Of a DNA stretch of 64,000 nucleotides, positions 1 through 52,279 are shown piece by piece. Position 1 is the stretch's first letter. Each line of letters starts with the position of its first letter. A program made the position numbers and the translations under genes. Source of the DNA: Egicoccus sp. AB-alg2. Lineage in GTDB: Bacteria > Actinomycetota > Nitriliruptoria > Nitriliruptorales > Nitriliruptoraceae. The notes beneath the pieces are model-generated. The model did no database searches. It saw nothing but the letters and a program-made list of their open reading frames with translations, and was not told where the DNA came from. The DNA lies in the NCBI RefSeq assembly GCF_041821065.1, contig NZ_JBGUAX010000005.1:124001-188000 (forward strand), given 5' to 3'.

Positions 1-586
1 GGCGCGTGACGCCGAGCGCCATCGCATAGTTCGCGCCGGACTTCACCTGCCCGAACTGGGGTGTCGTCCGCGGCAGGCGCGTCTCCACGGCCAGCGTCAG
101 CCCGCCGCCGTCGCCCCGGAAGTAGTCGCCGACCGGGCTGGCCAACACGTACAGCAACGCCTCGGCCGACGGCGCCGCCGCCGCACCGATGTTGGGCTCG
201 GTCCCCAGCAGGACGGGCCGCAGGTACAGCGCGCCCGGCACGGCCGGCACGACATCGAGGTTGGCCGCCACCACGTCGTGGAGCGCCCTGGTCACCAGCT
301 CCAGCGGCGGGACGGGCAGCGAGAGCAACGCGGCCGAGGCACGCAGGCGCTCGGCGTGGCGCGGCGCCCGGAACAGGCGCACCTTGCCGTCGATGCCGGG
401 ATGCGCCTTCAGGCCCTCGAAGCAGGCGCTGCCGTAGTGCAGCGCGTGCGCGGCGGGGTGAAGCGCCAACGGCCCGGTCTCGACCAGCTCCACGTCGCCG
501 AAGACGCCGTCGGTGGTGGTGGCCTGAATCATCCGGGGCGCCATGACCGTGCCGAAGGCCGGTGCCGTCGTCGCCGAACCGCTCAT
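1..586 (-). CDS. ilvE: Branched-chain amino acid aminotransferase, C-terminus off the window
   Basis: PLP-dependent class IV aminotransferase, which interconverts leucine, isoleucine and valine with their 2-oxo acids. About 195 residues are present; the rest lies beyond the left edge. Family motifs are clear: YGSACFEGLKAHPG near residue 50, LYLRPVLLGTEPNIG near 120-135, and KSGANYAMALG just before the edge, which resembles the loop carrying the PLP lysine region in this family. The ATG at 586 is preceded by a strong GGAGGAG ribosome site five bases upstream. The protein is cytoplasmic. It is transcribed away from the small-protein genes to its right, so the 271-base gap to them holds divergent promoters. 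The cofactor lysine's final context and the C-terminus cannot be seen. Confidence 0.93.
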   Translation of the reverse strand, partial: MSGSATTAPAFGTVMAPRMIQATTTDGVFGDVELVETGPLALHPAAHALHYGSACFEGLKAHPGIDGKVRLFRAPRHAERLRASAALLSLPVPPLELVTRALHDVVAANLDVVPAVPGALYLRPVLLGTEPNIGAAAAPSAEALLYVLASPVGDYFRGDGGGLTLAVETRLPRTTPQFGQVKSGANYAMALGVTR

Positions 587-3862: not shown

Positions 3863-5317
3863 ATGGGTGCCGACGCACGCGCCGTCGCACACGACCTCGG
3901 GCTGCTGCTGTTCGTCCCTGTGGGACTCGTCATCGGGACGGTGCCGGTCGCCGTGGCGGTCGGCGAGTGGCACGCCCTGCCGCCGCTGCTGATGGTCGCC
4001 GCCGCGGCCGGCGTGTGCGGGACCCTGCTCGTCCGCCGGTTCCGGGACGCGCGCACCTCCCACGCGTGGCCGGCCGTGGAGATCGTCGCGCTGGGCTGGC
4101 TGCTGCTGGCGGTCGCCGGCGCCGCCGTGCTGTGGGGCATCGGCACCGCGGCAGGGATGGACGACGCCGACCGCGTGTTCCGCGATCCCGGCAACGCGCT
4201 GTTCGAGGCGATGTCCGGGACGACCAGCACCGGGCTGTCCATGGCCGACGGCATCGAGTCCCAGCTGTCGCGGACGGTGCAGTGGTGGCGGTCGCTGCTG
4301 CAGTGGACCGGTGGCGTGGGCGTGGTGCTCTTCGCCATCGGCTTCACCCACACCGCGTCCAACGTGCGCGCCCTCTACGAGGCGGAGGGCCGGACCGACG
4401 ACCTCGGCGGCGACGTCCGGGTCACCGTCCGGCGCACCTTCGGGATCTACGCGGGGCTGACCGCCGCGGCGGTCCTGGCGCTGCTGGCCACCGGCCACAC
4501 CCCGTGGCAGGCCGTCAACCACGGGCTGACCGGCCTGTCGACGGGCGGATTCACGGTCACCGACGACAGCATCGCCGGCTTCGGCACGGCCACGCGCGTG
4601 GTCGTCATGGTCATCATGAGCCTCGGGGCCGTGACGTTCGTCGGCCACCACGTGCTGTTCGTGCAGCGGGACGTCCGCCGGTTTACCCGCCTCACCCCGG
4701 TGCGGGTGCAGGGCCTGCTGCTGGCGGCCGGGCTGGCGACCGCCGTCGCCCTGGCCGCCCGGGCGGCCGACCTGGCGCCCGCCGACGCCGCGTTCCAGTG
4801 GGTCAGCGCCACGGCGACGGCCGGGTTCAGCGTGGCACCGGAGCAGGCGGCCTGGCCGACCCCGTTGCTGCTCCTGCTGGTGCTGGCCATGGTCGTCGGC
4901 GCCCCGAGCGGTTCCACCGGGGGTGGCGCCAAGCAGGACCGCGTCGCCTGGCTGGTCAAGGCCGGCCTCGCCCGCCTGCGGCACGGCGGCCGACCCGGCC
5001 AGCTGCACTGGGACGGCGACGAGGTGGCGCCCGCCGCCCGGCGCGAGGCGGTCGAGCACGCCGCCGCCGTGGTGGCTCTGTGGCTGGTGACGCTGGCGAT
5101 CGGCTCGGCTTTGCTGGCCGCCACCACCGACGCGCCTCTGCGCCAGGTGGTGTTCGACGCGGCGTCCGCACTCGGCAACGTCGGCCTGGACGCCGAGGTG
5201 GTCGACGCCGAGCTGCCAGGGCTCGGCAAGGGCACCCTCGCGGCGCTCATGTACCTCGGGCGCCTCGAGTTGCTGGTCGCGCTGACGCTGGCGGCCCAGC
5301 ACGAACACGCGACCTGA
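3863..5317 (+). CDS. TrkH/KtrB-family potassium uptake channel subunit
   Basis: 484-residue membrane protein with the four selectivity-filter segments of the Trk/Ktr superfamily: SGTTSTGLSM (P1), LTGLSTGGFTVTD (P2), ATATAGFSV (P3) and SALGNVGLD (P4). The membrane pore would carry K+ (or Na+/K+) inward. The family normally needs a cytoplasmic TrkA/KtrA gating ring. No trkA gene is near, and the only RCK-type tail in this window is on the antiporter at 38494-39987. Start is ATG at 3863, 15 bases after the flavoprotein stop. It converges on the sulfite-oxidase-like gene. Confidence 0.93.
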   Translation: MGADARAVAHDLGLLLFVPVGLVIGTVPVAVAVGEWHALPPLLMVAAAAGVCGTLLVRRFRDARTSHAWPAVEIVALGWLLLAVAGAAVLWGIGTAAGMDDADRVFRDPGNALFEAMSGTTSTGLSMADGIESQLSRTVQWWRSLLQWTGGVGVVLFAIGFTHTASNVRALYEAEGRTDDLGGDVRVTVRRTFGIYAGLTAAAVLALLATGHTPWQAVNHGLTGLSTGGFTVTDDSIAGFGTATRVVVMVIMSLGAVTFVGHHVLFVQRDVRRFTRLTPVRVQGLLLAAGLATAVALAARAADLAPADAAFQWVSATATAGFSVAPEQAAWPTPLLLLLVLAMVVGAPSGSTGGGAKQDRVAWLVKAGLARLRHGGRPGQLHWDGDEVAPAARREAVEHAAAVVALWLVTLAIGSALLAATTDAPLRQVVFDAASALGNVGLDAEVVDAELPGLGKGTLAALMYLGRLELLVALTLAAQHEHAT

Positions 5318-49611: not shown

Positions 49612-50091
49612 ATGGCCTGGTACGACCGGCGGACCGTCTTCCACCTCGGCGCACCTGCCGAGTCGGTGTTCGCCACCATGATCGACCCGCGCGAGTTCCT
49701 CGCGGGCTGGCCGCGGGTCGGCGACGTCGAGCGGCTCGTCGACGGCGACCAGGACGGTGTCGGGGCGGTGCACCGCGGCTCGATCCGTTCCGTGTTGCCG
49801 TTCACGCTGACGTGGTCGATGACGACCGTGCGCACGGAACGACCCGAGTTGATCGAGTGGGAGGCACGCGGCGATCTCGAGGGGCACGGCCTGTGGCGCA
49901 TGCTGCCGACCGACGACGGCACCGAGGTCCGCTTCCGCTGGCAGGTGTCCACCACGCGGCGGTGGATGAACGTGCTCGCCCCCGTCGCGCACCGCGCGCT
50001 GGAGTGGAGCCACGACCGGGCCATGCACGACGGGGCCCGGGCGCTGGCGCGCTACCTCGATGCGCCGCTGTCGGGATTCCGCACGGCCTGA
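49612..50091 (+). CDS. SRPBCC (START-like) family protein
   Basis: 159 residues with a polyketide-cyclase/START-like fold: RRTVFHLGAPAESVFATMID at the N-terminus, ELIEWEARGDLEGHGLWRML in the middle and a C-terminal helix (WSHDRAMHDGARALARYLDA). It binds an unknown hydrophobic ligand in a cavity. The ATG at 49612 has GAAGGAGA upstream. Its last 40 bases overlap the 3' end of the convergent phosphoribosyltransferase gene. Confidence 0.82.
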   Translation: MAWYDRRTVFHLGAPAESVFATMIDPREFLAGWPRVGDVERLVDGDQDGVGAVHRGSIRSVLPFTLTWSMTTVRTERPELIEWEARGDLEGHGLWRMLPTDDGTEVRFRWQVSTTRRWMNVLAPVAHRALEWSHDRAMHDGARALARYLDAPLSGFRTA

Positions 50092-50714
50092 GCGGCGAGC
50101 AGGGCCAGGACCTCCTCGTCCCCGGTCTGGGTGAAGTCGGCGTACCACTGCCCGACCGCCCGGAACGCCATGGGCACGACGGGGCACACGACGGCGTCGG
50201 CCTCGGCGCGCAGGTGCTCCACCCCGCCCTCGGCCGCGACGGGCACGGCCAGGACCACGCCCAGCGGGCCCGCCCCACGGGCGGTGCGGCAGGCGGCCAC
50301 GGCGGTCGCGCCGGTCGCCAGCCCGTCGTCGACGATCACCGCGGTACGGCCGTGCAGGTCGAGGAGCGGCCGGTCGCCGCGGTAGCGGTGGACCCGGCGT
50401 TGCAGTTCCCGCCGTTCGGTGGCCTCGATGGCGTCCAGCGCCCCCTCGTCGAGCCCGAGACGGTCGACCATGGTCGGGTCGAGGACGCGCACCGCGCCCT
50501 CCGCGATCGCGCCGATGGCCAGCTCCGGCTGTCGGGGCGCGCCGAGCTTGCGGACCACCAGGACGTCCAGCGGGGCACCCAGGCGGTCGGCGACGGGCGC
50601 GGCCACCGGCACGCCCCCGCGCGGCAGGGCCAGCACGACCGGGTCCTGCAGGTCGCGCGTGGCGAGCAGGTCGGCCAGGCGCCGTCCGGCGTCGGTGCGG
50701 TCGGCGAACTGCAA
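50052..50714 (-). CDS. Phosphoribosyltransferase-domain protein
   Basis: 220 residues. The PRPP-binding motif VIVDDGLATGATAVAACRTA (~120-140) is intact, with VLALPRGGVPVAAPVAD and DVLVVRKLGAPRQPELAIG earlier. This is the layout of the large 'phosphoribosyltransferase' family, often found with erythromycin-esterase or dienelactone-hydrolase genes, whose substrate is unknown. TTG at 50714 has no strong ribosome site. It is only ten bases after the OsmC-family stop, so translation may be coupled. The stop-proximal part overlaps the convergent SRPBCC gene. Confidence 0.83.
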   Translation of the reverse strand: MQFADRTDAGRRLADLLATRDLQDPVVLALPRGGVPVAAPVADRLGAPLDVLVVRKLGAPRQPELAIGAIAEGAVRVLDPTMVDRLGLDEGALDAIEATERRELQRRVHRYRGDRPLLDLHGRTAVIVDDGLATGATAVAACRTARGAGPLGVVLAVPVAAEGGVEHLRAEADAVVCPVVPMAFRAVGQWYADFTQTGDEEVLALLAAQAVRNPDSGASR

Positions 50715-50724
50715 GGTCGGCCCA

Positions 50725-51213
50725 TCAGTCGTGGTCGGGGGGCGCCGCCACCAACTCGTAGGAGGTGCTGATCGCGATCGCGTCGCGGATCGACCGTGCC
50801 ACGGGGCACTTGTCGGCGTGGAAGCCGTGCACCCGCTCGATCTTGTCGCGGTCGGCGTCGGCGTCGACCGTCAGGGTGTAGGCCGCGTGCACCCGCCGCA
50901 ACACGAGCACGCCACCGTCCAACTCCACCTCGCCACGGACCTCGGATCGGAGACGACCGCCTCCGGCGGGGATGCCACGTGCCTCGAGGGCACCCCCGAA
51001 CGTGCCGGTCAGTCAGCCACCGGCAGCGGCCACCAGGTAGTCGATGGTGGTCGCGTCGGCCGGCATCTCGGCGGGATCGACCCCGTAGTGCGCGGCGATC
51101 TCGCCATGGACGCCGAACGTGACCGGCTGCGTACGCCCCGGCACCTGCGCGGAGCGGATCGGACCGCGCTCGCGCACGATCGAGACCCGCGACGTGTAGA
51201 CGACCTCCGACAT
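50725..51213 (-). CDS. OsmC-family protein, candidate selenoprotein with Sec67
   Basis: One frame of 163 codons is interrupted only by a UGA at codon 67 (51015-51013). Both sides are clearly one OsmC-like protein: FGVHGEIAAHYGVDPAEM and TTIDYLVAAAGG before it, LTGTFGGALEARGIPAGG after it, and HADKCPVARSI with the second conserved cysteine. In OsmC/Ohr proteins the peroxide-reactive cysteine directly follows the glycine at exactly this place (AAxxGC). Reading UGA as selenocysteine therefore restores the active site. The ATG at 51213 has GGAG seven bases before. A hairpin suitable as a SECIS element follows. The alternatives are a real nonsense mutation or a base error of a TGC codon. Confidence 0.75.
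50967..50998 (-). promoter_or_regulatory. SECIS-like hairpin inside the OsmC-family gene
   Basis: In the mRNA, 14 bases after the UGA, CGGGGGUGCC pairs with GGCAUCCCCG (ten pairs, one G-U) around a 12-base loop. Two more pairs can form inside the loop, leaving an apical AGGCA with G in second place and an unpaired U below. The apex then lies about 28 bases from the UGA. Bacterial SECIS elements sit immediately downstream of the UGA within roughly that distance, with a G among the first apical bases. A competing 5-bp hairpin (GUGCC/GGCAC) exists, so the fold is uncertain. Confidence 0.45.
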
Positions 51214-51283: not shown

Positions 51284-52279
51284 TCACAGCCAGCCGCTGC
51301 GCTTGAAGAGCCGGTAGAGCACGACGCAGATCAGCGCCATGGTCCCGAGCACGACGAAGTAGCCGTAGCGCCAACCCAGCTCGGGCATGTGCTGGAAGTT
51401 CATGCCGTAGATGCCCGCGATGGCGGTCGGGACCGCCACGATGGCGACCCACGCGGAGATCCGGCGCATGTCCTCGTTCTGCCGGATCCCGATCTGCGCC
51501 AGGTGGGCGTTGAGGGCGCTGTTGAGCAGTTCGTCGAGGCCGGTGACGTGCTCGCCGACCCGCGTCGCCTCCAGCCGGATGCCGCGCAGACGCGCCAGCA
51601 CGTCGGTCGGGGCCCCGGGCGCGCCCTCGTCGCCGCCGCGGTCGAGCAGATCGCCGAACTCGTCGAGCAGCTCCTCGAATTCGTCGGGCAGGGCCGCGAC
51701 GGCCCACCGGAAGAGCTGCACCTCGCTCTTGAGGCGATAGATGCGCTCGGCGCTGCTCGTCCGGCCGCCGGAGAAGACCTGGGTCTCGATCTCCTCGACG
51801 TCGTTGTCGAGCCCGTCGAGCACCACCGCGTAGCTGCGCACCACCCGGCCGGCGACGACTGCCAACAGCCCGACCGGTCCCAACCGCAACAGTGCCTCGT
51901 CCAGCTCGTCGCCGTTCGCCCGTGGCCGCGGTTCCGGTTGCGGCCCGCGGCGCAGCGTGACGGCCACGTCGTGCCCGAGCACCAGCGCGAGCTGGCCGAC
52001 CTCGATCACCTCCTCGGGATCGACGTAGACGGCGGTCTTGAGGACCACGACCAGGTCGTCCCCGTGGCGCTCGAGGCGCGGGCGGACGTGGTCCTGGGCG
52101 GCGACGGCCAGCGCCGCCGCCGACAGCCCGGTCCGCTCGGTCAGGTGGGCCAGGTCGGCGTGGCCGGGGTCGGCGACGTCGACCCACAGGAACCCGCCGT
52201 CGGCGGCGACGCGTGTGCGCTGGACCTCGAGCGGTCCCTGGTCGACCCGCCGCCCGTCGACGAACCGCACCGCTTCCAC
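51284..52279 (-). CDS. corA: CorA-family magnesium/metal channel
   Basis: 331 residues. A cytoplasmic alpha/beta and long-helix domain is followed by two C-terminal membrane helices. The GMN selectivity motif is present (AGIYGMNFQHMPEL, residues ~292-294), and the helices before it (ALNAHLAQIGIRQNEDMRRI) match CorA. Divalent Mg2+, Co2+ or Ni2+ uptake is the family role. GTG at 52279 follows GGAGG. It sits 12 bases after the aldo/keto reductase stop on the same strand, so the two may be co-transcribed. Confidence 0.93.
   Translation of the reverse strand: MEAVRFVDGRRVDQGPLEVQRTRVAADGGFLWVDVADPGHADLAHLTERTGLSAAALAVAAQDHVRPRLERHGDDLVVVLKTAVYVDPEEVIEVGQLALVLGHDVAVTLRRGPQPEPRPRANGDELDEALLRLGPVGLLAVVAGRVVRSYAVVLDGLDNDVEEIETQVFSGGRTSSAERIYRLKSEVQLFRWAVAALPDEFEELLDEFGDLLDRGGDEGAPGAPTDVLARLRGIRLEATRVGEHVTGLDELLNSALNAHLAQIGIRQNEDMRRISAWVAIVAVPTAIAGIYGMNFQHMPELGWRYGYFVVLGTMALICVVLYRLFKRSGWL

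Follow-up and report, generated by a model that had tools for sequence, protein, structure and literature searches.

We found that the window, i.e. the whole stretch of 64,000 nucleotides that was analysed (Egicoccus sp. AB-alg2, contig NZ_JBGUAX010000005.1, positions 124,001 to 188,000), very probably contains a real selenoprotein gene. The gene encodes a protein of the OsmC type and has an in-frame TGA at the codon of the active site. Judging from the comparison of homologues, this TGA is almost certainly read as selenocysteine (Sec).

An in-frame UGA at the active-site codon of an OsmC-like gene

The minus-strand frame from 51213 to 50725 had a single internal stop, the TGA at 51015-51013, which is codon 67 of 162. 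An initial annotation of this stretch had described two halves in one frame parted by this TGA alone, with similarity to OsmC on both sides, and both observations were borne out. When the UGA was read through, the Pfam domain OsmC (PF02566) matched the protein with 45.7 bits (gathering threshold 27.5) over residues 57-150 and thus spanned codon 67. In a profile of 16 homologues, residue 67 was paired with the conserved Cys of the solved OsmC-like structure 2OPL, in agreement with the earlier suggestion that the UGA stands at the position of the catalytic cysteine. The second cysteine named there, C136 (HADKCPVARS), was intact. Between the window gene and five close relatives, the nonsynonymous substitution rate (dN) was lower than the synonymous rate (dS) on both sides of the UGA. 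As dN/dS was also below 1 after the UGA, the downstream part appears to be translated in frame.

The same codon was surveyed in other genomes. Among the 61 genomes of the class set (the window's own genome and its nearest relatives), 17 had a close homologue with an identity of at least 56%, and all 17 homologues had TGA at codon 67. We also scanned 84,980 species genomes (GTDB) with two peptide patterns and inspected the best 80 of 322 loci. TGA was present at codon 67 in 80 of these 80 loci and Cys in none. One of the two patterns contained Cys codons; therefore, any bias ran against UGA forms. Taken together, the two independent searches, which had some genomes in common, gave 97 homologous loci with TGA at codon 67 in all of them. 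The UGA loci spanned at least seven phyla (Actinomycetota, Acidobacteriota, Chloroflexota, Desulfobacterota, Nitrospirota/Nitrospinota, Tectomicrobia and Poribacteria). The third codon after the UGA (U+3) encoded Gly in 90 of the 90 distinct downstream sequences tallied, and we refer to this family as UxxG.

A mutation or miscall of TGC or TGT to TGA, in a pseudogene or by sequencing error, would give the same picture in one genome, as a single-base change from a Cys codon is enough. But the same TGA recurs in 97 loci from at least seven phyla in which the other codons are open, and dN/dS downstream is below 1; this makes the explanation scarcely conceivable. Because the relatives, aligned at codon 67, shared the same TGA and did not have scattered stops, a base-call error can in practice be dismissed. 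The argument of the initial annotation that a random stop would hardly fall on the catalytic residue gains weight from the same 97 loci. Among the checked matches of the genome collection, only L081 had an additional internal stop; it is a TAG at about 4274-4279, probably reflecting a pseudogene or an assembly error. Some genomes had two UGA copies of the UxxG family (G333:C346, G357 and G373), and the second copy in G333 was also interrupted by TAA and TAG, as in gene decay. No homologues were found in the plasmid records searched.

Selenocysteine machinery and a putative recoding signal

The four components for which the genome was checked were all present: selB (282.6 bits in a profile search, curated cut-off 242.25), selA directly upstream of selB (509.8 bits), selD (332.6 bits) and tRNA-Sec (63.7 bits, gathering threshold 47), whose anticodon was TCA (UCA) according to ARAGORN. 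The genome also had five OsmC paralogues of the Cys type, which were uninterrupted and had Cys at the active site. To look for another selenoprotein, we searched the genome for selenium-dependent formate dehydrogenase (TIGR01553) and obtained no match, and none of its three molybdopterin oxidoreductases (L162-L164) had an in-frame stop. A Sec formate dehydrogenase does not account for the Sec machinery of this genome.

We also searched 396 genomes of the phylum for UGA and Cys forms. There were many UGA forms, and uninterrupted relatives were confined to the family f18, plus a short fragment (G209:C231). In seven of the eight f18 relatives, Cys was exactly at the active site (TLDYLVASVAGCLIGTFGG and similar; one such orthologue has the sequence LVASVAGCLIGTFGG). 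The other one had Asp. This locus is L160 (G359, about 2181-2615, GVDHLGAL), a diverged relative in which the resolving Cys was missing as well; a redox function is improbable for it. A selB above the cut-off was absent from all five f18 genomes and present in 23 of the 29 UGA-form genomes outside the class (Fisher test, P = 0.0017, with shared ancestry uncorrected). Among genomes at least 90% complete, selB was above the cut-off in 18 of 19 UGA-form genomes (P = 0.00014, again with shared ancestry uncorrected). Similarly, the 12 class-set genomes lacking both selA and tRNA-Sec had no OsmC-like selenoprotein gene. In the tree, the Cys rows clustered together with a support that was not strong (81/74), beside two divergent UGA rows of the family f30. 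Judging from its relatives, the genome of the window seems to belong to the Nitriliruptoraceae (Actinomycetota) or to stand close to them.

The presence of Cys at this site in f18 would also agree with a decoding of the UGA as Cys or Trp, by a near-cognate or suppressor tRNA or through a changed genetic code, and Sec insertion is a prediction. But both the OsmC-like gene and the CorA gene upstream of it end with TGA, which shows that UGA serves as a normal stop codon in this genome. In addition, tRNA-Sec (UCA) and selA, selB and selD are present, and Cys forms occurred where selB above the cut-off was missing. We consider such a decoding very improbable.

The described form of the bacterial selenocysteine insertion sequence (SECIS) is a stem-loop whose small apical loop contains a guanosine (PMC1088965). 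Such a structure, with the apical loop UGGAA or CUCGA, was found 22-38 nt downstream of the UGA. Outside the class, 69 distinct sequences had the hairpin GGCGCGC-UGGAA-GCGCGC at +22..+38, and 98.8% of the pair cells were standard. All 69 had C or T, and none a purine, as the last base of the Gly codon at +21..23, while the preceding Gly codon was purine-ending in 46 of 69. Compared with synonymous controls, the hairpin stability had a mean z of -1.7 outside the GGTCGTCT group. In the window clade, the register of the hairpin was shifted, and the pair at +23/+35, as well as the pair at +26/+32 in one instance, was T-A instead of C-G; the apical hairpin of the window itself was GUGCC-CUCGA-GGCAC at +22..+36 (50993-50979). 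A basal helix was present in 13 of the 17 class members, in which the UGA-proximal GAC-U-GACCG pairs with CGGUCGUC at +56..+63. In these members, the helix has 8 bp and its pairing is completed by the codons GGT-CGT-CTB. The 66-nt fold of the window was more stable than synonymous controls (z = -1.9), and the signal of the clade sits in this longer fold. One codon test was circular in part, as its loci had been picked for containing GGTCGTCT; the fair figure is 13 of 17, from the unselected class set. Permuting synonymous third bases among sequences was uninformative, as the partner bases were nearly invariant. Therefore, the support for the structure rests on the codon restriction, which was clear outside the window clade and weaker within it. 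SelB would presumably use these stems.

Several observations weigh against the decoding of this UGA as Sec. The genome G228, which is 98% complete, had the UGA form and no selB match at the threshold. In the window clade, the apical hairpin, taken alone, did not exceed the synonymous controls in stability (z about +0.5). Covariation was scant, and Rfam scans gave no match to a SECIS model. The proposal of the initial annotation that the UGA is read as Sec is supported by the Sec machinery, the conserved UGA, the Cys/Sec exchange that tracks selB, and the hairpin.

It is textbook knowledge that release factor 2 always competes with the decoding of bacterial UGA as Sec. The UGA might accordingly be a regulated stop, with the 66-residue N-terminal half as the main product and readthrough being rare or conditional (e.g. 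on selenium status); the basal helix, which encloses the UGA in 13 of the 17 class members, would suit such a role. But purifying selection acts on the downstream half, which carries C136 and much of the fold, and the upstream half alone would not form an OsmC domain. We consider a regulated stop very unlikely.

Predicted fold and proposed chemistry

The AlphaFold2 model of the window protein had a mean predicted local distance difference test (pLDDT) of 95.6 and a predicted template modelling (pTM) score of 0.88. Its top matches among solved structures (VIA) were 2onf (Z 14.3) and E. coli OsmC (Z 12.7-13.3, with 1nye at Z 13.3), and nearly all of the top 32 structure entries were named OsmC/Ohr-type or OsmC-like. 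The model confidently predicts an OsmC/Ohr fold.

In Ohr, the peroxidatic Cys is oxidized to a sulfenic acid, which reacts with the resolving Cys to give a disulfide; the disulfide is reduced by a lipoylated protein, and an Arg/Glu pair assists (PMC5962072). In the window protein, SelB together with Sec-tRNA(UCA) would read UGA-67 as selenocysteine, steered by the RNA stem-loop just downstream. Sec67 would then stand in for the peroxidatic cysteine and attack a (hydro)peroxide, giving a selenenic acid. By analogy with Ohr, the selenenic acid would form a selenenylsulfide with C136, which might be reset by a small dithiol (e.g. a lipoylated protein), thioredoxin or mycoredoxin. In this scheme, we infer Sec insertion itself, the SelB-bound hairpin, the peroxidase chemistry, the substrate and the reductant. 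The fold and the active-site layout suggest that the protein is likely a peroxidase.

It is possible, with a lower probability, that the selenoprotein is not a peroxidase and uses the OsmC fold for a Sec-dependent thiol/disulfide or sulfur-transfer reaction. The identity to characterised Ohr/OsmC proteins is low (10-20%), and FTN_1133, a protein of the OsmC superfamily, was reported to be without thiol-dependent peroxidase activity (PMC4069020). The residues invariant in the family alignment, H36, Y43, T56 and D58, differ from the Arg/Glu signature of Ohr. R14 and R20 were conserved and D58, not Glu, was near the helix start, according to the sequence alignment only (the pair of XfOhr is Arg19/Glu51). 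By our reading, D58 does not align with the catalytic Glu of Ohr but with another position, so the chemistry may differ from that of Ohr. But the Sec/Cys pair and the fold fit the layout of the peroxidatic and resolving Cys in Ohr (PMC5962072), and we still favour a peroxidase.

Clustering of the genome-collection loci by neighbourhood revealed no conserved partner gene, the largest cluster having six loci. No conserved neighbour points to the substrate or the reductant (the neighbours in the window are listed in Table 1). The loci L039, L110 and L081 adjoin flavin adenine dinucleotide (FAD) disulfide reductases, too few cases to use. The upstream neighbour of L110 (2577-3843, plus strand) has a glutaredoxin-like domain fused to an apparent flavin disulfide reductase and is a possible reductant.

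Table 1. Positions of the predicted OsmC-like selenoprotein gene, its elements and its neighbours in the window
Feature	Position	Strand	Remarks
OsmC-like selenoprotein gene (predicted), 162 codons with UGA as Sec	50725..51213	minus	ATG 51213-51211, stop TGA 50727-50725
Codon 67, the in-frame UGA at the OsmC active site (predicted Sec)	51013..51015	minus	homologue alignment, 2OPL, Cys in f18 orthologues
C136 codon, second (resolving) cysteine	50806..50808	minus	invariant in aligned UGA-bearing members
Putative bacterial SECIS region, UGA + 63 nt	50950..51015	minus	hairpin and basal helix
CorA-like Mg2+ transporter (PF01544), upstream same-strand neighbour	51284..52279	minus	neighbourhood not conserved
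Phosphoribosyltransferase-domain protein (PF00156), downstream same-strand neighbour	50052..50714	minus	neighbourhood not conserved

Relation to known OsmC-like proteins

On balance, we favour the interpretation that the UxxG genes form a distinct and widespread OsmC subfamily in which Sec is the rule and the Cys forms are a minor branch in selB-less actinobacteria, and which present annotation would miss or split. It could be a main use of the Sec machinery in lineages that have no selenium-dependent formate dehydrogenase; in actinobacteria, its recoding signal would be a hairpin of unusual length (about 63 nt) with the UGA itself paired at the base. In selenoprotein families, Sec forms are usually a minority beside Cys versions; here, Sec is standard among the close homologues inspected, across many phyla. 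The family would enlarge the selenoproteome and give selenium a peroxidase-like role in lineages seldom studied for this element. Annotation that takes UGA as a stop will split these genes, and current family models do not recognise them. The UGA/Cys pairs are ready enzyme comparisons for the benefit of selenium on the OsmC fold.

The Sargasso Sea survey predicted OsmC-like selenoproteins from three sequences with a UxxT motif (PMC1088965); they were taken up again in PMC2398784 and PMC13188914, and 3-5 marine sequences of this type were known. A review of May 2026 has a single listing of an OsmC-like selenoprotein, with the same UxxT motif. The initial annotation was right in recalling OsmC-like selenoproteins from metagenomic surveys, but that family is UxxT and the family of the window is a separate one. 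We did not find the UxxG subfamily in the openly readable literature, subscription papers not being covered. Thus, OsmC-like selenoproteins are already known as a kind, and in sequence the UxxG family is a separate subfamily, which appears to be uncatalogued.

The NCBIfam model NF041052 (OsmC_like_Se) describes proteins with an OsmC-like domain that likewise carry Sec at this active-site position. Membership of the window protein was rejected, as it scored 22.2-22.3 bits against a cut-off of 95. Among 16 UxxG-family members, 14 matched this model, with a best E of 1.1e-6. A true member, L165 (163.6 bits, UxxT), shares a Tectomicrobia genome with the UxxG-family locus L049, and a pairwise BLASTP comparison of L165 with the window protein gave no real match. 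L165 (KatS3mg131 genome, match 1501-1938, AVAFULLTQ) is a second type of OsmC-like selenoprotein. L179 (Desulfobacterales bin36, minus strand, central 309 bases) is a YhfA-like OsmC in which TGA occupies the same active-site codon (NALATUMTTTM); it may represent a third OsmC branch that uses Sec. L178 (G044, central 171 bases) is a short NF041052-like piece with an in-frame TGA (TATIGLUMLTQ), in a relative of the class that also carries a UxxG gene.

Compared with the Sargasso type, the window gene shares the OsmC fold (COG1765/PF02566), the predicted redox Sec and a bacterial SECIS-like stem-loop. The motif differs, being UxxT in the Sargasso type and ULTG (UxxG) in the window, and the former is marine, whereas the 80 inspected UxxG loci came from many environments and phyla. 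The f18 Cys orthologues (L151-L153) belong to the same subfamily and match the window protein at the same site (TLDYLVASVAGCLIGTFGG), but have Cys instead of Sec, in host genomes without selB above the cut-off. The thiol peroxidases X. fastidiosa Ohr and E. coli OsmC are alike in fold, in the peroxidatic/resolving dyad and in the helix position. They have a peroxidatic Cys where the window protein has a predicted Sec, their identity to it is 10-20%, and an Arg/Glu network is described for Ohr.
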